From NCBI RefSeq assembly GCF_024346455.1, contig NZ_JAGQCY010000007.1:62001-126000 (forward strand): a stretch of 64,000 nucleotides of DNA, given 5' to 3'. Positions 10,312-62,040 of this stretch are shown in pieces. A model generated the notes under the pieces. It was not told the origin of the DNA. It was given only the letters and a program-made list of their open reading frames with translations, and did not search any database. Position numbers and translations under genes: made by a program. The first letter of the stretch is position 1. Each line of letters begins with the position of its first letter. Origin of the DNA: Cyanobium sp. Aljojuca 7A6. GTDB taxonomy: Bacteria > Cyanobacteriota > Cyanobacteriia > PCC-6307 > Cyanobiaceae.

Positions 10312-12230
10312 GTCCCACCCCTCGCCTGGATCCGCGCCTGCCCGAAGGCCCCGTCGCCACCGCCTGGCAGCGTTGCCGCGAGAGCCTGCCGCTGATCAGC
10401 CCCAATCGCAAGCAGCGGCTGCGGATCCTGGTGGTGGGCAGCGGTCTGTCCGGAGCCGCCGCCGCCGCCAGCCTCGCCGAGCAGGGCTATCGGGTGCAGG
10501 TGCTCACCTACCACGACAGTCCGCGCCGGGCCCACTCGGTGGCGGCCCAGGGGGGCATCAACGCCGCCCGCAACTACGCCAACGATGGTGACAGCGTCGA
10601 GCGACTGTTCCGCGACACGGTGAAGGGCGGCGATTTCCGCGCCCGGGAAGCCGGCTGTCATCGGTTGGCCGAGATCAGCGGCGCGATCATCGACCAGTGC
10701 GTGGCCCAGGGGGTGCCGTTCGCGCGGGAGTACGGCGGCACCCTGGCCAACCGCAGCTTCGGCGGTGCCCTGGTGAGCCGCACCTTCTATGCCCGGGGCC
10801 AGACGGGGCAACAACTGCTCTATGGCGCTTACCAGGCGATGCTGCGCCAGGTGGCCGCCGGGCGGGTGGAGCTGCTCTGCCGCCGGGACATGCTCGACCT
10901 GATCGTCCATGACGGTGTGGCCCGGGGGGTGGTCTGCCGGCACCAGATCAGCGGCGCCCTGGAGGTGCTCAGTGCCGATGCGGTGCTGCTGGCCACCGGT
11001 GGCTATTCGAACGTCTTCTATCTCTCCACCAATGCCCTGAAGTCGAACGCCACCGCGATCTGGCAGGCCCATCGGCGTGGGGCCTGGTTCGCCAACCCCT
11101 GCTTCACCCAGATCCACCCCACCTGCATCCCCAGCGGTGAGGCCCACCAGAGCAAGCTCACCCTGATGAGCGAGAGCCTGCGTAACGACGGTCGGATCTG
11201 GCTGCCGCTGCGGCCGGGCGACGACCGGCCGCCGGCGACGATCCCGCAAGCGGAGCGGGATTACTTCCTCGAGCGCCAGTACCCCAGCTACGGCAATCTG
11301 GTGCCGCGGGATCTGGCCTCCCGGCGGGCCCGGGAGCTCTGTCTGGAGGGCCGGGGGGTTGGCCCCGGGGGCCGCTCCGTCTATCTCGACCTGGCCGAGG
11401 CCGTCGCCAGGGATGGCACAACGGCGATCGAGACGCGCTACGGAAACCTGCTGGAGATGTACGAGCGAATCACCGGCGAGGACCCCAGAACCACCCCCAT
11501 GCGGATCTATCCCGCCCCCCACTACACGATGGGCGGGCTGTGGGTCGACTACCACCTGATGAGCACGGTGCCGGGTCTGTTCGTGCTTGGGGAGGCCAAC
11601 TTCTCCGAGCACGGCGCCAACCGGCTGGGGGCCAGTGCCCTGATGCAGGCGCTGGCCGATGGCTACTTCATCGCCCCGGCGACGGTGACGGGCTGGCTGG
11701 CGGGACGTGCCGCGGGCACCCTGCCCGCCGACCACCCGGCCTGTTGCGAGGCGCTGGCGACGGTGGAGGCACGCATCGAAGCCCTGCGCCGCACGGGCGG
11801 CTCCCAGCCCGTGGATGTCTTCCACCGGAGGCTCGGCCACTTGATGATCGACGCCTGCGGCATCAGCCGCCAAGCCGATCGCCTGGCGGTGGCGCTTGGC
11901 GAGCTGGAGACGCTACGGCTCGGCTTCCTGGCGGAGGTCCGCATCCCAGGCGATGACAGCGTTCTTGACGCTGAACTGGCCAAGGCCCTGCGGCTGGAGG
12001 ATTTCTTCGGACTGGCGGATCTGATGCTGCGGGATGCCCTGGCGCGGCAGGAATCCTGCGGCGCCCATTTCCGCGAGGACCATCAGACTCCCTCCGGTGA
12101 AGCTCTGCGGGATGACGAACGCTTCGCCCACATCGCGGCCTGGGAGCACCGGCCTGGAGCCACGCCCGTGCGCCACAGCGAACCGCTGGTGTTCCAAACC
12201 GTTACGCCGGGACCGCGCAGCTACGGGTAA
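10308..12230 (+). CDS. sdhA: succinate dehydrogenase/fumarate reductase flavoprotein subunit
   Basis: Oxidises succinate to fumarate with covalent FAD. The dinucleotide fold [20 protein letters not shown] lies at 40-59, the FAD-attachment region [15 protein letters not shown] has H76, and [12 protein letters not shown] and [18 protein letters not shown] are further family motifs. The 640 residues match the B. subtilis/epsilon type that works with a single five-helix anchor. The start overlaps the sdhC stop. The 3' end overlaps the opposing GGDEF-EAL gene by 29 bases. The iron-sulfur partner SdhB is not directly downstream but beyond that gene. Confidence 0.95.
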
Positions 12231-13965
12231 GCGGCTCGGGACGGCCGAAGAGATAGCCCTGACCCTGGGCGCAGCCCATGGCGAGCAGGCCTGCATGCTG
12301 CTCGGTGGTCTCGATGCCTTCGGCGATCAGGCCCAGACCCAGGTCGCGGGAGAGGCGAATCATCGCCTCGAGCACCACGGCTTTACGGTGATCGTGGAGA
12401 AAATCAGAGATGAAACTTCGATCCACCTTGATCGTGTCAATCGGTAGTCGCGCCAGCCAGGACATGCTCGAGTAGCCCGTGCCGAAGTCATCGAGATGCA
12501 CCTTCACGCCGGCTTCCCTTAATCGACGCAGCTCAGAAGTGGCCAGGTCGGGATGTTCGATCAGGATGCTTTCAGTCACCTCGATCACCGTCCAGGAGGG
12601 ATCCACACCGGAGCGTTCCGCCTGGCTGAGGAAGAAGTCGCTGAGGCCGCTTTCCTTCAGCTGCAGGGGACTGACGTTGATCGCCATGGTGACGTCCGAA
12701 CCCTCGGCGCGAAGTTGGCAAAGCCGCTTCAGGGCCTGGCTGATCACCCAGCGGCCGATCGGCAGGATCAGGGCCGTGCGTTCGGCGAGCGGGATGAATT
12801 CAGACGGGGTGGCAATCGGCGCGGCCACGGCACCGAGGCGCAACAGGGCCTCCATCCCCACCACCATGCGGTTGCCCAGCTCCACGATCGGCTGATAGGC
12901 CAGGAACATGGCCTCGTGCAGGAGGGCCCCCTCCAGCTGATGACGCAGGTGGATGTTCTTTCTGACCTTTTTGTCGATGGAGGAATGGTAGAAAGAGATG
13001 TGCTGATCGCCGTTGGTCTTGGCTTCGTACATGGCAAGATCAGCCCGCCGGATCAATTCATTAACGGAGATCTCCGGATCGTCCGAGATGGTGATGCCGA
13101 TGCTCATCGATGGGCGGATCGTATGATCTTCCACCGACCAAGTCTGGCCGACAGCGTCATTGAGGCGCATCGCCAGTTGCAGGGCATCGCCCTCATCAAA
13201 AATGCCCATCGTGAGAACCACGAATTCGTCGCCACCGAGGCGCGAAAGGATGTCTCCAAAACGCAAGGATCGCTGCAGTCGGCGGCCGATCTCGATCAGC
13301 AGGTCGTCGCCGATCTGATGCCCATGCAGATCGTTGATCTCCTTGAAGGAGTTGAGATCGCAGAACAGGATGCTGATCCGGCCGCCGTTCTCCCGCTGGG
13401 TCTTCAGGGCCGCACGGATGCTGACGTGCAGGGCGCGGCGATTGGGCAGGCCGGTGACTGGGCACTCCATCACTTTGGTGGCCAGGGCGAGGCGTTCCTG
13501 CTCGAGCGCCCGGTTCAGATTCTCGGTCTGCTGGCGGCGCCGCTCGATCCGTTCGGCCTCGACCCGCAGCTGCTCATAGGAGAGCAGGGCGCTGACGTCG
13601 CGGAAGCAGAAGATCAGGGGGCGGAGCCGCTCACTGCGGATGGGCTTCCACTCGATTTCGAGGGCGCGCAGCTCCTTGCGATGCAGGACCTTGGTGAACT
13701 GCCCTCCCTGGTCGTTGCCGGCCAGCACCTGCTCCGGGTTCAGCAGGGAGGCACCGTCACAGTCGCGGGGAAGCTGGTCGTAGATCGATTCGCCCAGCAG
13801 AGACGGAGGGGTCCGCGCCACCAGCTCCCCATAACTGGCGTTGCACCAGAGCACCCGCCCCTCGCAGCAGGTGATCGCCAGGGCGTCGCTGATGGTGCCC
13901 AGAGCCGCCTCAAGCCGTCCCATCGACCGGCGCAGTTCCACCACCAGCTTGCGTTGGTCGTTCAC
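12202..13965 (-). CDS. PAS-GGDEF-EAL cyclic-di-GMP signalling protein
   Basis: Predicted soluble c-di-GMP enzyme of about 587 residues. A PAS-like sensor occupies about 20-125 and a short coiled coil about 130-165. The GGDEF domain has an intact GGDEF at 244-248 and an RFGD inhibitory site five residues before it. The EAL domain has MEALLRL at 371-377, [14 protein letters not shown] and EGIET, so both synthase and phosphodiesterase motifs look intact. The GTG start at 13965 precedes a helix opening the PAS region. An ATG at 14085 is possible but would run through the AT-rich palindrome at 14004-14029. It lies between sdhA and sdhB on the opposite strand. Confidence 0.9.
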
Positions 13966-14003
13966 GCGGCGGCAGGGACCCGGGCGGGCATGGGGTCGGA
14001 CAC

Positions 14004-14029
14004 CAATACTGAAAATTAACTGAGTATTG
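14004..14029. promoter_or_regulatory. AT-rich inverted repeat between the GGDEF-EAL gene and sdhB
   Basis: The 207-bp divergent spacer holds a perfect 7-bp inverted repeat, CAATACT and AGTATTG, separated by 12 AT-rich bases. It is the most AT-rich spot for several kilobases and could be a regulator operator or part of overlapping promoters for the two divergent genes. It sits 39 bases upstream of the GTG start of the GGDEF-EAL gene and 144 bases upstream of sdhB. Binding protein unknown. Confidence 0.4.
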
Positions 14030-14172
14030 CATCTTTCCCTCGCCGCCTGGCCCGGTACCGCGGCGATGACGTGGAACGACAACATCTCTGCCCCTGGAGC
14101 GGCAGAATCGGCCCGTGAGCTTGGCGCCTTCCAGGCCCCGCCAACGGCGACGCCCATGCCAAGGCTGTTCCG

Positions 14173-14916
14173 ATGACCACCGTTTCGCTCACCCTGAGAA
14201 TCTGGCGCCAGGCCGGTTCCGCCAAGCCCGGTGGTTTTGAAGTTCATCGGTTGGACGCGGTCTCCACCGACCTCTCCCTGTTGGAGGCGCTCGACCTGCT
14301 GAACGAACGGCTGATCGCTGCCGGGGAGCGCCCGGTGGGGTTCGAGCACGATTGCCGCGAGGGCATCTGCGGGTCCTGCGGCTTTCTCGTCAATGGCCAG
14401 GCCCAGGGCCCCCAGCGGGCCACCAGCGTCTGCCAGCTCTACCTGCGTCAGTTCCTCGATGGCGCGGTGCTGACGCTGGAACCCTTCCGCGCCCGGGCCT
14501 TTCCCGTGTTGCAGGATCTGGCCGTGGATCGCTCCGCCTTCGACCGGATCATCACCGCCGGCGGGTACTGCTCGATCAACACCGGCAGTGCGCCGGAAGC
14601 GAACACCCTGCTGGTCGGCCGCGAGCAGGCGGCCATGGCCTTCGACGCGGCCACCTGCATCGGCTGCGGCGCCTGTGTGGCCAGTTGCCGCAACGCCTCA
14701 GCCAGCCTCTTTGTGGCGGCCAAGCTGGCCCATCTGGGCCAGTTGCCCCAGGGCCAGCCGGAGCGGCAGCAGCGGGCCCGGGCGTTGCAGGCGCAGATGG
14801 TCAACGAAGGCTTCGGCAGCTGCAGCAGCCACCTGGAATGTGAGGCCGTCTGCCCCCAGCAGATCTCCGCCGACTGGATCAGCTGGATGCACCGCGAATC
14901 CTGGCGGCGACCCTGA
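14173..14916 (+). CDS. sdhB: succinate dehydrogenase/fumarate reductase iron-sulfur subunit
   Basis: Carries electrons from SdhA flavin to the membrane anchor. A [2Fe-2S] site is made by C61, C66, C69 and C87 (CREGICGSCG). The C-terminal ferredoxin domain has C162, C165, C168, C172 (CIGCGACVASC) and C217, C223, C227 for the other clusters. Length 247 residues, matching the B. subtilis-type SdhB. It is separated from sdhCA by an opposing gene, so it needs its own promoter. Its stop is four bases from the converging ackA stop. Confidence 0.95.
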   Translation: MTTVSLTLRIWRQAGSAKPGGFEVHRLDAVSTDLSLLEALDLLNERLIAAGERPVGFEHDCREGICGSCGFLVNGQAQGPQRATSVCQLYLRQFLDGAVLTLEPFRARAFPVLQDLAVDRSAFDRIITAGGYCSINTGSAPEANTLLVGREQAAMAFDAATCIGCGACVASCRNASASLFVAAKLAHLGQLPQGQPERQQRARALQAQMVNEGFGSCSSHLECEAVCPQQISADWISWMHRESWRRP

Positions 14917-14920
14917 GGCT

Positions 14921-16024
14921 TCAGGCGCTCGCAGCACCGCAGTGACGGGCGATCACCCCCTCCTCATCGGCGGGGACCTGCAGCAGTTCGAACGGCCCCA
15001 GCCAGGCGAGCTCCGCCTCCAACTCCTGCTTCAGCGTCCCATCGTGTTCGCCGATGCCCCCGGTGAGGGCCACCACGTCGACCCCCCCCAGGCTGGCGGC
15101 CATGGCCCCGATCCCCTGCAGCAGCTGGTGGCGGAACACCGCGATGGCGAGCTGGGCCCCGCCATGGCCGTCGGCGGCGGCCTGGCGGAGGTCCTTCATG
15201 CTCGGACTCAGCTCCGAGAGGCCGAGCAGCCCGCTCTCCTGCTGCAGGTCGTGGGCCAGCTCCTCCACCGTGGCCCCCCGGCGCAGCTGGTGCAGCAACA
15301 GACCCGGATCCACCGAACCGCTGCGGGTGGCCATCACCAGGCCCTCCAGGGGGGTGTAGCCCATCGTGGTGGCGATGCTGCGCCCCCCGCGGATGGCACA
15401 GAGGGAGCAGCCGGCTCCGAGGTGGCAGCTGATCAGCCTCAGGTCTTCGTCGCCTGGGCCATCGGCGCGGCGGCGGGCCACGCTTTCGGCCACGTGCTGA
15501 TGGTTGAGGCCGTGGAAGCCGAAACGGCGCAGGCCCTCGGCGCGCCAGCGGGCCGGGACCGCGTAGGTGCGGGCCTCCGGTGGCAGGGTGCCGTGGAAGG
15601 CCGTGTCGAAGCAGGCCCATTGCTCGATCGCGGGCTTCCAGCGGGTCAGCCAGCGCATCACCCGCAGGGCCGGACCGTTGTGCAACGGGGCAAGGGGCAC
15701 CAGCCCCTCCAGCACCTCCAGCACCTCCGCATCCAGCCGGACCGGGGCCGTGAAGCGCTCGCCACCATGGACCACCCGATGGCCGGCGCGGATCAGACCA
15801 TCCCCCCAGGCCGAAAGGGCCTCAGGCAGCCAGGCGTCCAGCACCGCCTCCAGGCGCGCCTCGGGGGCTGTCCCCTCTGCGGTGCCGATGCTCCAGTTGC
15901 GCTGGTCCCTCCAGAGGCAGTCCCCTGAGCGGGTGTGCACGGAGACCTTGAGGCTGGAACTGCCGGCATTCAGCACCAGTACTTCCCCGGCCTCCGGGGG
16001 CGTCGCTGTGGACGGTGATGTCAT
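14921..16024 (-). CDS. ackA: acetate kinase
   Basis: Converts acetyl phosphate and ADP to acetate and ATP. The N-terminal [15 protein letters not shown], a His-containing GHRVVHGG near residue 100, FDTAFH near 140, FHGLNHQHV near 170 and [12 protein letters not shown] near 200 are the family motifs. TGGIGEHD near 325 closes the active site. The 367 residues are slightly short of the usual 400. The ATG overlaps the phosphoketolase stop (ATGA), so the enzyme making acetyl phosphate and the one consuming it are translationally coupled. No phosphotransacetylase gene is present or needed for this step. Confidence 0.95.
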
Positions 16025-18453
16025 CCCTGCCCGGCGATCGGCAGTGTCCAGCGCCAGTCGGTCACTTCCGGGGCATCCTTGCCGTGGGTATGGGCATAGG
16101 CCCGGTGGGACAGGATCGCATCCTGCATCCGCTCCTTGACGTGGGCGGCGCGGGAGCGCAGGAAGGGCACCCGATTGACCACGTCAATCACGAGATTGAA
16201 GCGGTCGATCTGGTTGTTCATCGCCAGTTCGAGCGGCGTGTTGATGTTGCCCTTCTCTTTGTACCCACGCACGTGGATGTTGGCGTGGTTGGTGCGGCGG
16301 TAGGTGAGGCGGTGGATCAGCCAGGGATAGCCGTGGAAGTTGAAGATCACCGGCCGATCGGTGGTGAACAGGGTGTCGAAATCCCGGTCGCTCAGGCCGT
16401 GGGGATGTTCGTTCGGCTCGGTGAGGGCGAACAGCTTCACCACATTGATCACCCGGATCCGCAGACTCGGGATCTCCCGGTGCAGGATCTCCACCGCCGC
16501 CAGCGTCTCCTTGGTGGGGATGTCACCGGCGCAGGCCATCACCACATCCGGTTCATCCGGCTCGGTGCCGCAGTCGTCGTTGCTGGCCCAGCCGACGATG
16601 CTGATGCCCTTGGCCACGTGGCGCCTGGCCTGCTCCAGGGTGAAGTACTGGAGGTGCTTCTGTTTGTCGGAGACGATGATGTTGCAGACGTTGGTTTCCT
16701 GCAGGGCCTCCTCCGCCACCGCCAGCAGGCAGTTGGCATCGGCCGGCAGATACACCCGCACCACATCGCCGCTCTTGTTGCCGGCCAGGTCGATGAAGCC
16801 GGGATCCTGGTGGGTGAAGCCGTTGTGGTCCTGTCGCCACACCGTGGACGAGATCAGGCAGTTCCAGGCGCCGATCGGGGCCCGCCAGGGGGCGTGCAGG
16901 AGGCAGGATTCCAGCCACTTGGCGTGCTGGTTGAACATCGAGGCGATCACATGGGCGAAGGCCTCATAGGTGTGGAAAAAGCCGTAGCGGCCGGTGAGCA
17001 GGTAGCCCTCCATCATGCCCACCAGGGTGTGCTCGCTGAGCATCTCCACCACCCGGCCGCTGCGGGCCAGCTCGCTGCCGTTGAGGTCCTCCGGCAGGAA
17101 CTCCTCCATCCATACCTTCTTGCTCACTTCATAGATCGCCTGCAGGCGGTTGGAGGCGGTTTCATCGGGGCCGAACACCCGCATCGAGTAGGGATTCGCC
17201 TGGATGATGTCGCGGAGCAGTTCGCCCAGGGGGTAGGTGTTCTCCTCCTCGGAGGCACCCGGTGCCACCACCTCCACCGCGTAGTCCTCCAGGGGTGGGA
17301 ACTGCAGCTTGCGGCGCAGCAGGCCGCCGTTGGCGTGGGGGTTGGAGCCCATCCGCCGGTTCCCCTGAGGCGACAGCGCCTGCAGTTCGGGCAGCAGGCT
17401 GCCGTTCTCGTCGAACAGCTCTTCGGGCCGGTAGCTCCTGAGCCACTGCTCCAGCAGCTGCAGCTGTTCGGGATCGGTGTTCGGGGCGGCCAGGGGCACC
17501 TGGTGGGCCCGCCAGAAGCCCTCCAGCTTCTTGCCGTGCAGGGAGGCCGGTCCGGTCCAGCCCTTGGGCGAGCGCAGCACGATCATCGGCCAGGCGGGGC
17601 GGACGGCCTCGCCGCTGGCGCGGGCCTCGGCGCGGATCTCCAGGATCCGCCCGATGGCCTGGTCCATGGCGGCGGCCATGGCCTGGTGCATCGCCATCGG
17701 CTCATGGCCTTCGACGAAGATCGGCTCCCAGCCGTTGCCGCGCATCAGGCTGGCCAGCTCGTCGCGGGGGATGCGGGCCAGCAGGGTGGGGTTGGCGATC
17801 TTGTAGCCGTTGAGGTGCAGCACGGGCAGCACCGCCCCGTCCCCGATCGGGTTGAGGAACTTGTTGATGTGCCAGGAGGTGGCCAGGGGGCCGGTCTCGG
17901 CTTCTCCATCCCCCACGCAGGCCAGGGCGATCAGGTTGGGGTTGTCGAACACCGCTCCGCAGGCGTGCGAGAGCACGTAGCCCAGCTCGCCCCCCTCGTG
18001 GATCGACCCGGGGGTTTCCGGGGTGCAGTGACTGCCGATGTGGCCGGGGAAGGAGAACTGCTTGAAGAAGCGCCGCATCCCTTCGGCGTCCTGGCTCTTG
18101 TCGGGGTAGACCTCGCTGTAGCTGCCGTCGAGGTAGGTGGGGCCGAGCACTCCGGGGGCGCCGTGACCGGGCCCGGAGAGGTAGATCATGTCGAGGTCAT
18201 GGCGCCGGATCACCCGGTTGGCATGGGCCCAGATGAAGGCCTGGCCGGGAGAGGAGCCCCAGTGGCCCAGCAGCCGCGCCTTGACGTGATCATGCTGCAG
18301 GGGTTCGGCCAGCAGCGGGTTGGCGCGCAGGTAGATCATCCCGACGGCCAGGTAGTTGGCGGCGCGCCACCAGGCATCGATCAGGGACAGTTCCTGGGAG
18401 GGATCCGGTGTCGAGGCGTGGGTCTCGAAGGGGGCCATCATCGAAGCGGACAT
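16021..18453 (-). CDS. xfp: xylulose-5-phosphate/fructose-6-phosphate phosphoketolase
   Basis: TPP enzyme splitting xylulose 5-phosphate or fructose 6-phosphate into acetyl phosphate plus a triose or erythrose phosphate. Motifs include [40 protein letters not shown], the TPP segment [17 protein letters not shown], and [17 protein letters not shown]. About 810 residues, normal for the family. The ATG at 18453 has AGGTGA ten bases upstream; an in-frame TTG at 18468 is less likely. Coupled to ackA. In cyanobacteria phosphoketolase gives acetate and ATP in the dark or a carbon-saving route in the light. Confidence 0.97.
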
Positions 18454-18599
18454 CACCGTCACCTGCAAAGGCTTGTAAGAAAGACTCTCGCCCGGCGGAG
18501 TTAAAGGGGCGGTAAGTTTTCAACTCTCCAGTGCCGATGTCAGGGATTCGACATGCGCGGTGGAGGGGGCCTTGGGCGTCGTGCACACCTGCGCCGTCC

Positions 18600-18782
18600 T
18601 CAGGCGGCCAGCGGTGGCCTGGCGGAGCGCGCCTGGGCTGCCAGCAGGGTTGCCTCCTGACGTGCATCCAGCAGCGCGTGAACCTTGCGTTGATGGCGAT
18701 CCCTGTAGAGGAAGGTGTTGACGCCTTCGGGAAGGACGCTGAAGCGGCGAATCGAACCGTCACGCAGAAGAAACAGTGGCAT
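18600..18782 (-). CDS. small hypothetical protein, 60 aa
   Basis: A short frame in the 530-bp space between xfp and the amylase. The product is a basic, soluble peptide with MPLFLLRDGSIRRFSVLP at the start and alternating charged and hydrophobic residues that look like a beta-strand followed by helices. There is no clear Shine-Dalgarno sequence. No family recognised. Reality is uncertain; composition is more protein-like than in the other frames of this gap. The rest of the gap (18454-18599 and 18783-18985) shows no other gene. Confidence 0.4.
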   Translation of the reverse strand: MPLFLLRDGSIRRFSVLPEGVNTFLYRDRHQRKVHALLDARQEATLLAAQARSARPPLAA

Positions 18783-18985
18783 GGATCATCTGGGGAGCCA
18801 GCCCCATGACGCCATGCTGCTCGGGTCATGTCGAGGGCTGTGGGCGGGAGCATCAGCCCTGGTGATGGTTGGTGCCAGATGCCGGGATCCGCCCCCCGCA
18901 TCGGAGTGGTGCCCTGCCGCTCTTAACCCCCTGATCTCCCGCGGGCAGCAAGCTGGGGCCCTTACGCCGAGAGCGCGGTCCCGTC

Positions 18986-20821
18986 ATGGTTGTCAGCACC
19001 CCGGATGGGTACGCTCCCGTCTCCGCCCATCAGTTGTTCGAGCAGGAGGCGGAATTCCGCAAGGAGACGATCTACTTCATCGTCATTGATCGCTTTTTCA
19101 ATGGCGACAGTGCCAACGACGGCGTCAGCAAGAAGGGGCTTTATGACCCGAGCAGAAGCCAATGGGGGCACTATTGGGGTGGCGATCTCGAAGGGATCAT
19201 CGAGAAGGCAGACTATCTCAAACAGCTTGGTATCACAGCAGTCTGGCTTTCCCCGCTGTTCGAGCAGGTGGATGCCATCGAGCATGGCCATGGCCCCATG
19301 CACGGCTATTGGACAAAGGACTTCAAGCGAGTCAATCCCCATTTCGTGAAGCTGGGTGACGCGACATCGGTGAAATCATGCGACACCCTGCGAAGGATGG
19401 TCGATGCCCTGCATGCACGAGGCATCAAGATTGTTCTGGATATTGTTTGCAATCATAGTTCTCCCGAGTTGAATGGCAGTAAGGGAGTTGTAACGGATGA
19501 CGGCGAGCCTCTGGCGGATTTCCACCAGGATATCAATGGCTTTTATTACCATTATCCGGACATCAATGACTGGGATGATGAGTTTCAGCTGATTCATCAT
19601 GAAATGCTCGGCCTGGCCACTTTTAATGAGAGTAACATTAACTTCAGAAACTACATCAAAAGTGCCATCAAGGCTTGGCTTGATCTCGGCTTTGACGCCT
19701 TGCGCATCGACACCCTGAAGCACATGCCGGTGTGGTTCTGGCAGGAGTTTGTCGCGGATATTCAGGCCCACAAACCTGACACGTTTCTCTTTGGGGAGTA
19801 TGGCTTTGGTTCGCCCTGGGATGGGCGCTATCTGAACTATGCCAACCATACGGGAGTCTCGGTGCTTGACTTCGCGCTGGCGGGAGCCATCCGCTCCGCC
19901 TTCAGCGGCCATGAGCCTGGCGGCTTCCACCTGATCGAGAGGGTGCTGGCGATGGATCCGGTGTACCGGCGTTCCACCGCGTTGGTGACGTTCATCGAAA
20001 ATCACGATATGCCCCGATTCCTCTCCATCTGCCCCAGCCATGGGGATCTGGAGCTGGCCACGGTGCTGCTGCTGACGCTTCGCGGCATTCCCTGTCTGTT
20101 CTATGGGACCGAGCAGTACCTGGTGAACGATTCCGACGGCGGCCATGACCCCTACAACCGGCCCATGATGGAGGCATGGGAGACGGGAACAAGACTCTCT
20201 GGGATCATCCGCACCATGGCGTCCCTGCGCAAGCGCAACCGGGCGCTCTCCTACGGCAGGCACGGCCAGAAGTACATCTCCGACGGCCTCTATGCCTTCA
20301 CCCGGCGTTATCGCGACAATCGTGTCTTCGTCATCGTCAACAAGGGTGATTCCGCATCCCTCGACATCGAGCATTCCGACCTCCCTGACGGGCCCCACAC
20401 CTGCCTGCTCACCGGTCAGAACGTTGTTGTGGAGCAGGGGGCGATCCGGCAGCTCTCCATCCAGGGCAAGGGCGCCTGCGTCCTGGCGGTCCAGGGAGAG
20501 CCACTGACGGCCACCACGGTGGTCAAGTTTCAGATCAACGACTACATCACCCATCCCGGTGAGGTCATGGCCGTCTGCGGCGATGCCCCGGAGCTGGGTG
20601 CCTGGGATGTCGATGTCTGCCCCCAGCTGGAGTACATCAATGGGGACGTCTGGTTTGCCGAGGTGGGGTTCCATGAATCGGCGGGTCGGCCGATTCGCTT
20701 CAAATTCGTGGTGCTGCGCCCCTCGGGCCAGCAACCCGTCTTCGAGAATCTGGTCTGTCGCACCTTCCTGCTCCCCAGGGATGGCTCGGTGAAGCTGGAT
20801 CTGGACTGGGACCGCCAGTAG
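18986..20821 (+). CDS. GH13 alpha-amylase-family enzyme with C-terminal CBM20-like starch-binding domain
   Basis: Hydrolyses or rearranges alpha-1,4-glucans. The barrel opens with IYFIVIDRFFNGD near 30. Catalytic residues are nucleophile D242 (FDALRIDTLKH), acid/base E271 (FLFGEYGFG) and D341 (FIENHDMPR). Conserved region I is DIVCNHSSP near 155. Residues about 505-611 resemble CBM20 (QINDYITHPGEVMAVCGD, APELGAWDV). There is no signal peptide, so it probably acts on internal glycogen. CGTase or maltogenic activity is possible. Codons in 19400-19800 are visibly more AT-rich than the neighbours. It is flanked by phosphoketolase and transketolase/Pgi genes on the opposite strand. Confidence 0.92.
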   Translation: MVVSTPDGYAPVSAHQLFEQEAEFRKETIYFIVIDRFFNGDSANDGVSKKGLYDPSRSQWGHYWGGDLEGIIEKADYLKQLGITAVWLSPLFEQVDAIEHGHGPMHGYWTKDFKRVNPHFVKLGDATSVKSCDTLRRMVDALHARGIKIVLDIVCNHSSPELNGSKGVVTDDGEPLADFHQDINGFYYHYPDINDWDDEFQLIHHEMLGLATFNESNINFRNYIKSAIKAWLDLGFDALRIDTLKHMPVWFWQEFVADIQAHKPDTFLFGEYGFGSPWDGRYLNYANHTGVSVLDFALAGAIRSAFSGHEPGGFHLIERVLAMDPVYRRSTALVTFIENHDMPRFLSICPSHGDLELATVLLLTLRGIPCLFYGTEQYLVNDSDGGHDPYNRPMMEAWETGTRLSGIIRTMASLRKRNRALSYGRHGQKYISDGLYAFTRRYRDNRVFVIVNKGDSASLDIEHSDLPDGPHTCLLTGQNVVVEQGAIRQLSIQGKGACVLAVQGEPLTATTVVKFQINDYITHPGEVMAVCGDAPELGAWDVDVCPQLEYINGDVWFAEVGFHESAGRPIRFKFVVLRPSGQQPVFENLVCRTFLLPRDGSVKLDLDWDRQ

Positions 20822-20852
20822 GACGTGGCCCGAGAGCCGACGGCAGGTCCCC

Positions 20853-22781
20853 TCAGCCCAGCAGATTGCGCACGTGGGCCAGGATGCCCTCGCTGTCGAT
20901 GCCTTGGTGGGGAGCCTGCTCCCAGAGGCCGCCGCAGCCCTCACGCCAGGTGCCCAGGTGCGCGTACTTCGGGTGGTAGCCCCGCTCCAGCAACCAGGTG
21001 CCGAAGCGGCTGCCGAGGCCGGTGCGGCGGTTGAAGGCTTCCACCACCAGCACGAAGGGGGATGTGCCGATCGTCTCCATCATCGTTTCATCGACGACGT
21101 TGAGGCTGGCCTTGTTGATCAGCCGCACGGCGGTGCCCTCCTGACGCAGGCGCTCCACCGCATCGAGGGCCCGGTAGAGACAGTCACCGAAGCTGATGAT
21201 CGTGCCGGCATCACCCTCGCGCACCACCTCATCGCGGCAGGGCTCGAAGATATAGCCGTCCCCATGCAGGTCGTGGCCCTGTTCATCCAGCAGGTTGGGC
21301 ACCTTGGAGCGGGTCGAGAAGATGAAGCGCAGGCCGGGATCATGGAACACAGCCTCCACACAGGCCTTCATCTGCCCTGCATCGGCGGGGAAGTAGAGCC
21401 GGGTGGGGTGGTGGTCATCGTCGAGGCCGTTGTCGGCGAAGCAGTTGTTGAGGCCGAAATGGCAGGTGTTGTCGGCCATGTCATCCACGCCGGCATGGGA
21501 GAAATGGCAGAGCACGTTGGCACCGTTGAGCCGGGCCATGGTGATTTCGGAGATGCACATCTCCAGGAAGGCGCTGAAGGTGGCGAAGAGGCCCTGGCGG
21601 CCCTTCTGCATCCCGAATCCGGCAGCGGCGGAGAAATTGGCCCGCTCCATGATCCCACCGCTGATGAAGATCTCCGGATAGGCCTTGCGGATCTGGCTGA
21701 GTCCGCAGGAGCCTTCCAGGTCGGAGTCGACGCAGAGCACCGTGTCCTTGCGCTCGCTGGGCTCCAGCCGGGAGAGTACCTCCACCACCGTGTCACCGAA
21801 GACGTTGCGGTTGGCCGCGGTGGTGCGGCTGGAGCCCAGGTAGATGGTGGGATTGACCGGTTTCTCAATTGCCTTCAGGCAGGCGGCGGCGGCGTCCTGG
21901 CCACGCTGCTCCAGGTAGGTGATCGCCAGGGCAACGGGAATCACGTCGTGGCCGTGGGTGGAACCCTCCAGCCCCTCAATGCCCACGGCCATCGGCCGCT
22001 TGTTGACGACAGCAACCGGTCCGTCGGTGGCCACGGCGGCACAGAGTCTGCCGTAGAGGTCGTCGAGATCCTCGCCATCGCCGCTGAGGGTGGCCAGGCC
22101 CTGGCCGGCCAGGGTGCGGGCCACGTCAAAGCCCTTCTGGTATTGGGAAGGATGGCCGGCGATGGTGACGTCGTTGTCGTCGATCACCAGCTTCACGTCG
22201 AGGCCGTGGGCCACCGCGAAGCGGGCCGCTTCGGCGTCATCCCCCTCCTGCTGGGCACCATCGGAACCCAGGCAGAAGAGGATGCGGCCCGGATGGGCCA
22301 GGGCCACCCCGTTCACGAAGGGCCACAGATGTCCCAGCCGGCCGGAGCTGAACTCCACTCCGGGGGTCAGGCCCAGCTCGGGGTGGCCGGGAAGTCGCGA
22401 ATGGGCGGCGCGGTAGTTCATCAGATCGTTGGCCTGCAAATGGCCGCGCAGCACCGCCATCAGGTACTGGGTGGCGACGCGGTGGCCGGCCTCGTCGAAG
22501 AACACCGGCACGAACCGATCCGGCGCGCCGCGGAAGAAGCCATCGAGGATCATCACCTCCGGCACGGTGTCGTAGGGGCCGCCGGTGTGGCCGCCCACAC
22601 CCCGGGCGGCGCCAGTCGCGGTGAAGAAGACGATGGCGTCCCGGCAGAGCTGGATGTTGGAGCGCAGGGCGTCCCTCTGCAACGGGCTCAGCCTGGGCTG
22701 GGAGGGATCGAGGCTCAGGGGCTGGTAGGCCGCCAGATCGATCGGGAAGGCGTTGGTCACACCGGGCTGGGAGAGAGTCAT
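20853..22781 (-). CDS. transketolase-family protein, divergent type
   Basis: Two-domain TPP enzyme of 642 residues. The pyrimidine/pyrophosphate half has [18 protein letters not shown] near 60 and the TPP-Mg motif [17 protein letters not shown] with DDND about 30 residues on. The second half has [17 protein letters not shown], whose Glu corresponds to the catalytic Glu of transketolase. Many usual transketolase stretches are altered, so this is probably not the housekeeping Calvin-cycle enzyme but a paralog with its own substrate preference or regulation. Its ATG overlaps the pgi stop (ATGA), tying it to hexose-phosphate conversion. Confidence 0.85.
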
Positions 22782-24376
22782 GACTGGAGAACGAGCTGCC
22801 GGAGGGACGCGGTAAGGGTGTTGGGCTGGGCCGCATCGCCGTCGAGGACAATGCCGCGGGGATTGGCGGCCAGGTGACGCACGATCTGGTAGACGGTTTC
22901 CACCGCTTCGCCCGCGTCGGCCTGGCGGGCCAGGTCCTCCAAGGGGAGGGGGTGGTCGGCGGCCTGCAGCACCCGGACCACCCGGCGTTGCAGATCCAGG
23001 ATGGCAGCGGCGGCCTTTTTGCCGGCTTCCACGCCTGGCTGGTGGTAGGCGTTGATGTTCACCAGCGAGGCATACAGTCCCACGGCCCGTTCGTAGAGCG
23101 CGATGAGAGCCCCGACGCTGCGGGGCTCCACGCGGCGGATCGTGATGGTGATCGAATCGCGCTGGTTGTCGTACAGCGCCTGGCGGGTCCCCATGAGGAA
23201 GCCGGAGAGGAAGTCGCCTGAGGTGACTCCCTCCTCCACCTCGATCGAAGCGCCGCAGCGATCTTCGAGGACTTCGATGAAGGTGGCGAAGAAATTGGGG
23301 ATGCCCTCGCGCAGTTGTTGAACGTAGGCATGCTGGTCGGTGGAGCCCTTGTTGCCGTACACCGCGATCCCCTGGTGCACGACGTTGCCGTCGAGGTCCC
23401 TCTCCTTGCCGAGGGATTCCATCACCAGCTGCTGCAGGTAGCGGCTGAACAGCAGCAGGCTGTCCTTGTAGGGCAGCACCACCATGTCCTTGCTGCCGCG
23501 GCCTTCTCCGGCGTGGAACCAGCTGAGGGCCAGCAGGGCGGCTGGGTTGGTACGCACCCGGGGCACACGGGTGGCCTCGTCCATCACCCGGGCTCCCTCC
23601 AGCAGGGCCCGGATGTCGATGCCCTGAAGGGCCGCAGGCAGGAGGCCCACCGCCGACAGCACGGAGGTGCGGCCACCCACCCAGTCGTGCATGGGAAACT
23701 CGGCCAGCCAGTGCTGTTCGTGGGCCAGGAGGTCCATCCGGCTGCCCGGCATGGTGATCGCCACGGCATGGCTGGGGAAGTCCAGGCCCTGGGCGGCGAA
23801 GGCCTGTTGCACCTCCAGCAGGCCGTTGCGGGGTTCGGGGGTACCTCCGGACTTGCTGGTGTCGATCACCAGGGTGCTGCCCAGCCGGTCCCGCAGCCCC
23901 GCCAGCACCCGATCGATCCCGGCGGGGTCGGTGTTGTCGATGAAGTGGATGGCCAGGGGGGCCTGGTCGGGGGCCAGGGCGGCGGCCACGAACTGGGGTC
24001 CCAGGGCCGAGCCGCCGATGCCGATCGCCAGTAGATCGGTGAAGCGGGGGGCCGTCGGCGGATGGATCGTGCCCGCGTGTACCGCCCTGGCGAAGCCCTC
24101 GATCCGCTCGATCACCGCGATGATTTCGGTTCGGATCTCCTCGCTGGGGGCCAGGTCGGGCTGGCGAAGCCAGTAGTGACCCACCATCCTCTCCTCGTCC
24201 GGATTGGCGATGCCGCCCGCCTCAAGGTCCTCCATGGCCGCGAAGGCCGCGGTGAAGGCGGAATCCAGCCGTTCCGGCAGCTCTGCCTCGATGCGCATCC
24301 TGCTGACATCCAGGTGGAGCTGCAGGCCTGGGTGGACGTACAGCCATTCCTGGAAGCGATTCCAGAGGGATCCCAT
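22778..24376 (-). CDS. pgi: glucose-6-phosphate isomerase
   Basis: Interconverts glucose 6-phosphate and fructose 6-phosphate. Family motifs: [16 protein letters not shown] near 115, [16 protein letters not shown] near 172, [20 protein letters not shown] near 233, and the C-terminal active-site Lys in [20 protein letters not shown] near 450. Length 532. First gene of a coupled pair with the transketolase-like gene. Its product, fructose 6-phosphate, is a substrate of both transketolase and the nearby phosphoketolase. Confidence 0.96.
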
Positions 24377-24441
24377 GGTTTCGCCTGCCGATGTCCTGAA
24401 ACGTTCCTACCCGGCGCAGGTAAAGGAACGCGGCGAATCCA

Positions 24442-25089
24442 TCAGATGCCCGGAGCCAGGGGGGCGTTCCAGCACTTCACCGCCGGCAGGCCGCGGTAGT
24501 CGGACAGGACCGTGAGCGTGGCGGTGTCGAGCAGGAAATGGGCGCCGTGGCTGGGCGGCAGCCCGATCCAGCGCGCCACGAACACCCGCAGCAGATGCCC
24601 GTGGGCAAACAGGGCCACCCGGCCGCCCTCCTGCCGCAGCCGACCGATCACCCGGTCGACCCGTTCCCCCACCTGGGCCGGACTCTCCCCATCGGGACAG
24701 CCGTCGCGGAACACCAGCCAGCCCGGGTGCCGCCCCTGGATCTCCGTGCTCGTCAGACTTTCGTAGGCCCCGTAGTTCCACTCGACCAGATCGGGCTCGA
24801 GGCAGGCCTGGGCGGCCAGACCCGCCAGTTCGCAGGTGCGCCGCGCCCGCTGCAGCGGGCTGGACAGCACCAGGGAGAACGGGCTCGTCGCCAGGAGTGG
24901 GGCCAGCCCGCGGGCGGCCGCCTCCCCCCGCTCGGTGAGGGGGATGTCGGTGCTGCCGGTGTGCTGGCCCGAGAGGCTCCAGGCCGTTTCGCCGTGGCGG
25001 ATGAGGACCACTTCGAGGGCGGCGGGGGCAGGAGCGTTCTGAATCGTTGTCACGGCAGGGCTCTCACGGAAAATCGTCGTGCTGCTCAC
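24442..25089 (-). CDS. histidine phosphatase family protein (phosphoglycerate-mutase-like)
   Basis: Soluble phosphatase/mutase of the branch 1 His-phosphatase superfamily. The catalytic LIRHGETAWSLSGQHTG is near residue 28. LSSPLQRARRTCELAG follows, EWNYGAYESL is the acid-donor region, and the second His is in LFAHGHLLRVF. Insertions typical of true phosphoglycerate mutase are absent, so a sugar-phosphate phosphatase is more likely; substrate unknown. The start is GTG at 25089, with another GTG 12 codons in. It lies 65 bases upstream of pgi in the same direction and so may be the first gene of that operon. Confidence 0.85.
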   Translation of the reverse strand: MSSTTIFRESPAVTTIQNAPAPAALEVVLIRHGETAWSLSGQHTGSTDIPLTERGEAAARGLAPLLATSPFSLVLSSPLQRARRTCELAGLAAQACLEPDLVEWNYGAYESLTSTEIQGRHPGWLVFRDGCPDGESPAQVGERVDRVIGRLRQEGGRVALFAHGHLLRVFVARWIGLPPSHGAHFLLDTATLTVLSDYRGLPAVKCWNAPLAPGI

Positions 25090-61993: not shown

Positions 61994-62040
61994 GGTGGGG
62001 GTTAAGGGGCGGGTGTGTCCTTGGTGCGGTGGGGTGGAGC

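Follow-up and report, generated by a model that had tools for sequence, protein, structure and literature searches.

A block of six genes for sugar and acetate metabolism lies on contig NZ_JAGQCY010000007.1 of Cyanobium sp. Aljojuca 7A6, within the 64,000-nucleotide stretch analyzed here (positions 62,001 to 126,000 of the contig; hereafter, the window). The genes ackA, xfp, amy, a transketolase-family gene (TK-like), pgi2, and hisP occupy positions 14921 to 25089 of the window, and the coordinates and families assigned to them in an initial annotation, which had read the block as a module running stored glucan to acetate, were borne out by profile matches. ackA (14921 to 16024, minus strand) encodes an acetate kinase of 367 amino acids (PF00871, E value of 3e-85; TIGR00016, 279.1 bits, just under the cut-off of 293.4) that is predicted to convert acetyl phosphate and ADP to acetate and ATP. 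xfp (16021 to 18468, minus strand) encodes a xylulose-5-phosphate/fructose-6-phosphate phosphoketolase that carries PF03894, PF09363, and PF09364, matches the phosphoketolase family NF003617 at 1412.6 bits (cut-off, 1143), and has 8io8 as its closest solved structure. The protein has 815 amino acids from the TTG at 18468 chosen by the open reading frame tool, but its likely start is the ATG at 18453. amy (18986 to 20821, plus strand) encodes an alpha-amylase-type protein with a catalytic GH13 domain (PF00128, 1.1e-46) and a C-terminal starch-binding CBM20 domain (PF00686, 1.7e-10), both over the cut-off, and 6wni and 1qho are its closest solved structures. TK-like (20853 to 22781, minus strand) encodes a divergent transketolase-family enzyme of 642 amino acids (PF00456, 2.2e-14; PF02780, 6.4e-11), pgi2 (22778 to 24376, minus strand) encodes a second, block-specific glucose-6-phosphate isomerase (NF010696, 860.3 bits; cut-off, 671), and hisP (24442 to 25089, minus strand) encodes a histidine phosphatase (PF00300, 1.3e-47), predicted to be a metal-free fructose/sedoheptulose bisphosphatase.

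The two gene couplings claimed earlier are both overlaps of 4 bases, with the start of ackA within the final four bases of xfp and the start of TK-like within the final four bases of pgi2, and hisP heads the pgi unit as described, 65 bases ahead of pgi2. The description of a signal-less, starch-binding amylase between the two couples also held, since the protein lacks a hydrophobic segment at its N terminus (best 15-residue Kyte-Doolittle mean of 0.69 in the first 60 residues), but it required one correction. amy lies on the strand opposite to its neighbors, convergent with TK-like and divergent from xfp, and the block therefore comprises at least three transcription units.

To place the block in context, 42 genomes of the genus were compared. 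Matches shorter than 60 residues or below 45% to 60% identity, depending on the gene, were excluded from the locus counts, and the remoter hisP homologs of 11 genomes (50% to 57% identity) were left out of the linkage counts. xfp was present in 40 of the 42 genomes, including all 33 of the good ones, and was followed immediately by ackA in 39 of the 40; in the other, the contig stops inside xfp. hisP was detected in 38 genomes at an E value of 1e-15, with at least 62% identity in 27 of them. It lies upstream of xfp on the same strand in 17 of the 40 xfp-bearing genomes, with the gap either empty (7 genomes) or holding only TK-like (4 genomes), amy (2 genomes), or pgi, TK-like, and amy together (4 genomes). 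The linkage of xfp with ackA and of hisP with xfp in the genus is thus more than chance. TK-like (15 copies) and amy were each found in 14 genomes. Twelve of the TK-like copies adjoin hisP, pgi, amy, or xfp, and amy adjoins hisP, TK-like, or xfp in 13 of its 14 carriers, the exception being a 59% homolog in G329. A pgi gene of any type was present in 41 genomes; the genome studied here has two, the block copy at C32 and another at C12, which are 58% identical, and the block-type pgi2 occurs in 5 of the 42 genomes, always between hisP and TK-like.

The same parts are arranged differently among the relatives. The order hisP-xfp-ackA occurs in seven genomes (one with glgP upstream), hisP-TK-xfp-ackA in four, glgP-hisP-amy-xfp-ackA in two, and glgP-hisP-TK-amy in two (G307 and G308, whose xfp-ackA pair is located elsewhere), and the full order hisP-pgi-TK-amy-xfp-ackA was found in four genomes (one decayed) as well as in G303, where it is split by contig ends. 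With the protein of the Cyanobium record L072, identified as glycogen phosphorylase by reading, as the query, glgP was found immediately before hisP in 7 of the 42 genomes (G298, G307, G308, G313, G318, G327, and G330) and before xfp in G329. In L072 itself, glgP-hisP-pgi-TK is followed by membrane-protein genes and then by xfp, and its TK-like protein shows 76% identity, a value unmatched among the 42 genomes. Such reuse of a shared set of genes by the relatives suggests that they form a true functional unit. On balance, we put at roughly 60% the probability that freshwater picocyanobacteria possess a modular phosphoketolase locus for turning glycogen into acetate and that the block is one of its versions.

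Every one of the 42 genomes has glgP matches, at between 2 and 5 places, and some of these matches are pieces. In the genome studied here, glgP pieces lie at the contig ends of C7, C31, and C33 and at C4; similar glgP copies may therefore break the assembly.

The proposed route would begin with the opening of glucan by the cytosolic amylase, which would yield oligosaccharides, and by GlgP, which would yield glucose 1-phosphate and whose gene lies elsewhere in this genome and inside the locus in some relatives. The initial annotation had passed from glucan to glucose 6-phosphate and on to acetate. A glucan-to-acetate phosphoketolase locus is supported by the presence of glgP beside hisP, amy, or xfp in relatives, but the amylase alone is insufficient for glucose 6-phosphate, which would also require phosphorolysis and phosphoglucomutase, or glucokinase. 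The dedicated second isomerase would then convert glucose 6-phosphate to fructose 6-phosphate, XFP would release acetyl phosphate from fructose 6-phosphate and/or xylulose 5-phosphate, and AckA would turn acetyl phosphate into acetate and ATP. The tetrose, triose, and pentose phosphates that remain would be reshuffled by the TK-like enzyme and transaldolase. hisP, acting as a metal-free fructose/sedoheptulose bisphosphatase, may feed carbon back into the ketose phosphate pool and help to rebuild fructose 6-phosphate. The substrates of hisP and TK-like, as well as the direction of flux, are inferred.

The lower end of the route agrees with the absence of alternatives in the genus. Phosphotransacetylase (PTA; PF01515) and PduL (PF06130) were detected in none of the 42 genus genomes; 10 and 2 of 14 control genomes, respectively, were positive. 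XFP is thus the likely source of acetyl phosphate, in line with the earlier claim that the module does not need phosphotransacetylase. In addition, XFP of the window contains, from residue 715, the complete eight-residue ATP-sensing motif PWX2HX3YRX7HXRX31R described in PMC10365998, and the motif is present in 35 of 39 XFP loci of the genus, one of the four misses being a truncated gene. The motif fits the use of the enzyme at low ATP, and control of this kind would allow more flux when ATP drops, for example, in darkness or anoxia.

The closest solved relatives of hisP are GPM2 of Mycobacterium tuberculosis (Rv3214, chain 2a6p; E value of 3.4e-37) and yeast YKR043C/SHB17 (1.4e-24). According to PMC4535450, GPM2 is a fructose bisphosphatase and broad sugar phosphatase, SHB17 has both fructose and sedoheptulose bisphosphatase activities, and neither seems to require metal. 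These relationships make hisP a candidate for the bisphosphatase step that a phosphoketolase cycle needs, and it is likely the bisphosphatase of such a cycle, with predicted activity on fructose and sedoheptulose bisphosphates, whereas the initial annotation had assigned it no function. The fructose/sedoheptulose bisphosphatase of the Calvin cycle is reported to be inhibited by AMP (PMC10365998), an inhibition that the histidine phosphatase would presumably escape.

The block is flanked on the left by sdhB, a GGDEF/EAL-type gene, and sdhA and on the right by narB and nrt genes, all named from their translations. The long GGDEF/EAL-type gene (12202 to 14349), which is on the opposite strand, separates sdhA from sdhB and is found likewise in L055 and L057 to L060.

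According to a competing explanation, which we regard as unlikely although it fits several of the observations, the functional unit is only xfp-ackA (with hisP), the known ATP-sensitive XPK-acetate kinase valve, and the passengers pgi2, TK-like, and amy have collected between narB and sdhB, at a site prone to insertions. The adjacency of xfp and ackA in 39 of 40 genomes, the seven genomes in which hisP stands directly ahead of xfp without other genes, and the optional nature of TK-like, amy, and pgi2 are consistent with it, as is a 15-base element, GTCAGGGATTCGACA, in the divergent region between xfp and amy upstream of xfp (18539 to 18553). In 20 of the 40 genomes, including this one, the element matches at 13 or more of 15 positions (one position being free) and stands at the same distance ahead of xfp; this is a recount that includes second contigs, an earlier scan having given 18 genomes besides the window. 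The remaining 20 genomes, one of which (G303) is truncated where xfp begins, have no match better than 12 of 15 positions within 330 bases of xfp. The element has partial dyad symmetry, and an equivalent site is present in 19 further genomes of the genus. The exact sequence occurs once in the window, with one additional match (81 to 95) at two mismatches, and because 7 of 100 shuffles also gave two matches, the weight of the element lies in its conserved place and not in its count. It is kept whether hisP, TK-like, amy, or glgP lies upstream of xfp, an indication that xfp-ackA is served by a promoter of its own wherever the element is present.

The passenger explanation accounts less well for the nature and the fate of the added genes. 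These are sugar or glycogen enzymes, glgP-hisP-TK-amy is intact in G307 and G308 though xfp-ackA lies elsewhere, and the linkage occurs in three well-supported sub-branches of the TK-like tree. Moreover, pgi, TK-like, and amy are jointly broken in G292, where pgi is in two frames with a gap of 49 residues, TK-like has two stops and one frame change, and amy has one stop and two frame changes, whereas no stop interrupts hisP, xfp, or ackA. Their decay together beside intact partners suggests, from this one genome, that pgi, TK-like, and amy form a single accessory set.

The TK-like enzyme was described earlier as a transketolase paralog, and its family membership and catalytic positions agree with this, but it is not an ordinary copy. 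It scores 50.8 bits against PF00456, versus 523.4 bits for the ordinary transketolase at C33, and although its PF00456 and PF02780 matches exceed their cut-offs, its best NCBIfam transketolase match (NF004556, 220.3 bits) falls under the cut-off of 575, for which reason the name "transketolase-like" is used. In a phmmer search, human transketolase was its top match. Its residues H100, H133, D174, E179, E379, H429, and D437 align with human H77, H110, D155, E160, E366, H416, and D424, which we take to be thiamine diphosphate (ThDP)/metal-site and catalytic His/Glu positions. These seven residues, together with H65 and N203, whose pairings were set by eye, are invariant in 27 aligned TK-like sequences (mean column identity of 82%). 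Of the donor phosphate-binding residues, human H416 pairs with H429 and human R474 with R491, the position aligned to R474 being conserved; R325 and S358 are also invariant in the 27 sequences, in a region where the pairwise alignment to the human enzyme is poor. By these alignments, TK-like belongs to a cyanobacterial family that has diverged from ordinary transketolase but is itself strongly conserved and retains the catalytic positions of transketolase.

The strong divergence from canonical transketolase leaves room for another alternative, in which TK-like is a ThDP enzyme of a different reaction (for example, DXS-like or acting on another ketose) and the locus serves the mixotrophic use of a sugar or a sugar derivative. 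An AlphaFold2 model of TK-like (mean pLDDT of 78.5) had human transketolase as its first Foldseek match by E value, whereas TM-scores favored DXS (0.6 to 0.7) over transketolase (0.35 to 0.45). In VIA superpositions, the root mean square deviation was 3.5 to 4.4 for DXS chains and about 19 for full transketolase chains, and the top row was the C-terminal chain of a split transketolase. The domain packing of the single-chain model is DXS-like and not transketolase-like. The active site of transketolase sits between two chains, and the DXS-like packing may thus be an artefact of single-chain modeling. Although a DeoR-type regulator lies opposite TK-like in 11 of 105 loci, the first rank of human transketolase in both the phmmer and the Foldseek E value searches, the split-transketolase chain at the head of the VIA list, and the conserved catalytic positions make a different reaction improbable.

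The phylogeny and distribution of TK-like bear on how far the modular locus extends. TK-like was found in 24 of 292 cyanobacterial genomes (own genome included) at 63% identity or more, with 63% to 73% identity in the 22 genomes outside the genus; among the freshwater picocyanobacteria in the best 80 of 510 confirmed stretches, identities rise to 80% and above. These 80 stretches are all cyanobacterial by title and make up the named-locus set, to which statements drawn from it are confined. In a tree of 87 TK-like rows, the 27 picocyanobacterial rows form one clade (SH-aLRT of 99), within which a 14-row group including the window has a support of only 87. In each of these 14 rows, at least one of hisP, pgi, amy, glgP, and xfp lies no more than 4 kb away; the other 13 picocyanobacterial rows are solitary or divergent from glgX (four). 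G304 (L149 and L180) carries two TK-like genes, one from each picocyanobacterial sub-clade, one in the locus and the other solitary.

Neighbors of TK-like were surveyed in 105 loci, which come from two overlapping locus sets and hence do not represent independent species. glgX is found no more than 6 kb from TK-like in 7 of the 105 loci, and glgP in 4. The glgX-type debranching enzyme gene was seen in L062, L065, L066, L076, L100, L109, and L112, at 124 to 186 bases and divergent from TK-like in four Synechococcus loci and 2.0 to 3.4 kb off in the other three. A DeoR regulator was found within 6 kb in 11 of the 105 loci, and a strongly conserved DeoR/GlpR-type regulator, likely a sugar-phosphate sensor, was observed opposite TK-like in L039, L043, L080, L094, L099, L101, L106, L115, L124, L128, L130, and L189, the last being a Nostoc plasmid. 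In L050, L051, and L054, TK-like lies within a conserved cluster of GH13 and HAD-type, sucrose-phosphatase-like genes, as read from translations. Four plasmid records matched TK-like, the Nostoc plasmid at 71.6% identity (with the DeoR regulator adjacent) and three others at 26% to 28%, and no PHROG match linked TK-like to phages. The idea that TK-like corresponds to Synechocystis sll0529, which is treated as a phosphoketolase isozyme in PMC7744508, was dropped; TK-like reached the phosphoketolase model only at an E value of 0.00046, and sll0529 was known here from its description only.

Several observations weigh against a modular glycogen-to-acetate locus. The expectation that the genes keep together across the genus had a mixed outcome. 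The parts recur together, but 28 of the 42 genomes lack TK-like and 28 lack amy, whereas xfp is present in 40, so the extra genes are optional, and the full order is confined to the four genomes and the split one. Three TK-like copies in the genus are solitary (G298, G328, and the second copy in G304). Conservation of the block throughout cyanobacteria was ruled out, as L032, of the same genus, is the only one of 23 TK-like loci that has it; the 22 loci outside the genus are without a nearby block partner, save GH13 proteins at 27% to 28% identity in 3. Among the best 80 of the 510 confirmed stretches, TK-like was the sole match of 12 query genes in 46. No regulatory element common to the whole block was found, nor was a second copy of GTCAGGGATTCGACA near the block. 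With regard to function, GPM2, the relative of hisP, is also the broad sugar phosphatase mentioned above, and in Synechococcus elongatus, the main role ascribed to XPK is that of a brake on carbon fixation, and its deletion left dark carbon release unchanged (PMC10365998).

A more far-reaching version of the modular reading, which is offered tentatively and which we hold to be possible but doubtful, is that the locus is a natural non-oxidative glycolysis cluster. When ATP is low and XFP is freed from ATP inhibition, it would yield three acetates and three ATP from each glucosyl unit of glycogen, neither releasing CO2 nor altering the net redox balance, and the histidine-phosphatase fructose/sedoheptulose bisphosphatase, the dedicated isomerase, and the transketolase would bypass the light-dependent, AMP-sensitive enzymes of the Calvin cycle. 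The non-oxidative glycolysis set consists of XFP, transketolase, transaldolase, bisphosphatase, aldolase, and isomerases; the first four were searched for and found, transketolase in both canonical and TK-like form and the bisphosphatase as a candidate. Transaldolase is present in all 42 genomes, so the cycle would not rely on hisP for want of it. Synthetic pathways of this type yield three acetyl phosphates per glucose at a cost of one ATP with no net redox change (PMC10468489). Phosphorolysis of glycogen would spare that one ATP, which gives about three ATP per glucosyl unit. Closure of the cycle and expression of the genes in the dark are presumed in this scheme.

The locus resembles several systems described previously. 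XPK and acetate kinase are known to support dark anaerobic survival in S. elongatus (PMC10365998 and PMC11257934), and the ATP-sensitive pathway of PMC10365998 shares with the block the complete ATP motif, the acetate kinase partner, and a proposed ATP supply in dark anoxia. Here, however, xfp and ackA overlap as one operon within a locus of sugar enzymes (hisP, pgi2, TK-like, and amylase, with glgP in relatives). Like synthetic non-oxidative glycolysis and the sedoheptulose bisphosphatase phosphoketolase cycle (PMC10468489), the block combines a phosphoketolase with carbon rearrangement or a bisphosphatase and has acetyl phosphate as a product, and that work included yeast Shb17, a relative of hisP. 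Those pathways were, however, engineered in Escherichia coli, whereas the present set is natural, forms a putative cycle, and ends in acetate kinase. PMC12965863 refers to non-oxidative glycolysis as a route whose establishment was a goal of research. The xfp and ackA pair also constitutes cyanobacterial co-occurrence module 272 (PMC5862535), which, unlike the block, has two genes only and is reported as not close together in 32 of 53 strains. xfp and ackA are also named, with sdhA, sdhB, and sdhC, in a figure legend on the narB-nrt neighborhood of freshwater picocyanobacteria (PMC10161378); in that legend and the related passages, hisP, pgi, transketolase, and amylase go unmentioned, and no pathway is put forward. 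A description of this locus as a pathway was not found in the open-access papers searched, and by the same searches neither the TK-like family nor the modular glycogen-hisP-pgi2-TK-XFP-AckA locus seems to have been described.

What phosphoketolase does in cyanobacteria is a matter of continuing debate. The locus offers a concrete candidate pathway for dark or anoxic survival, comprising glycogen breakdown, a spare isomerase, a candidate bisphosphatase, a transketolase-like enzyme, an ATP-gated phosphoketolase, and acetate kinase, and it possibly parallels in nature a carbon-conserving route that has been engineered. In addition, it draws attention to a strongly conserved, uncharacterized family of ThDP enzymes, represented by TK-like, and to a likely light-independent fructose/sedoheptulose bisphosphatase, hisP.

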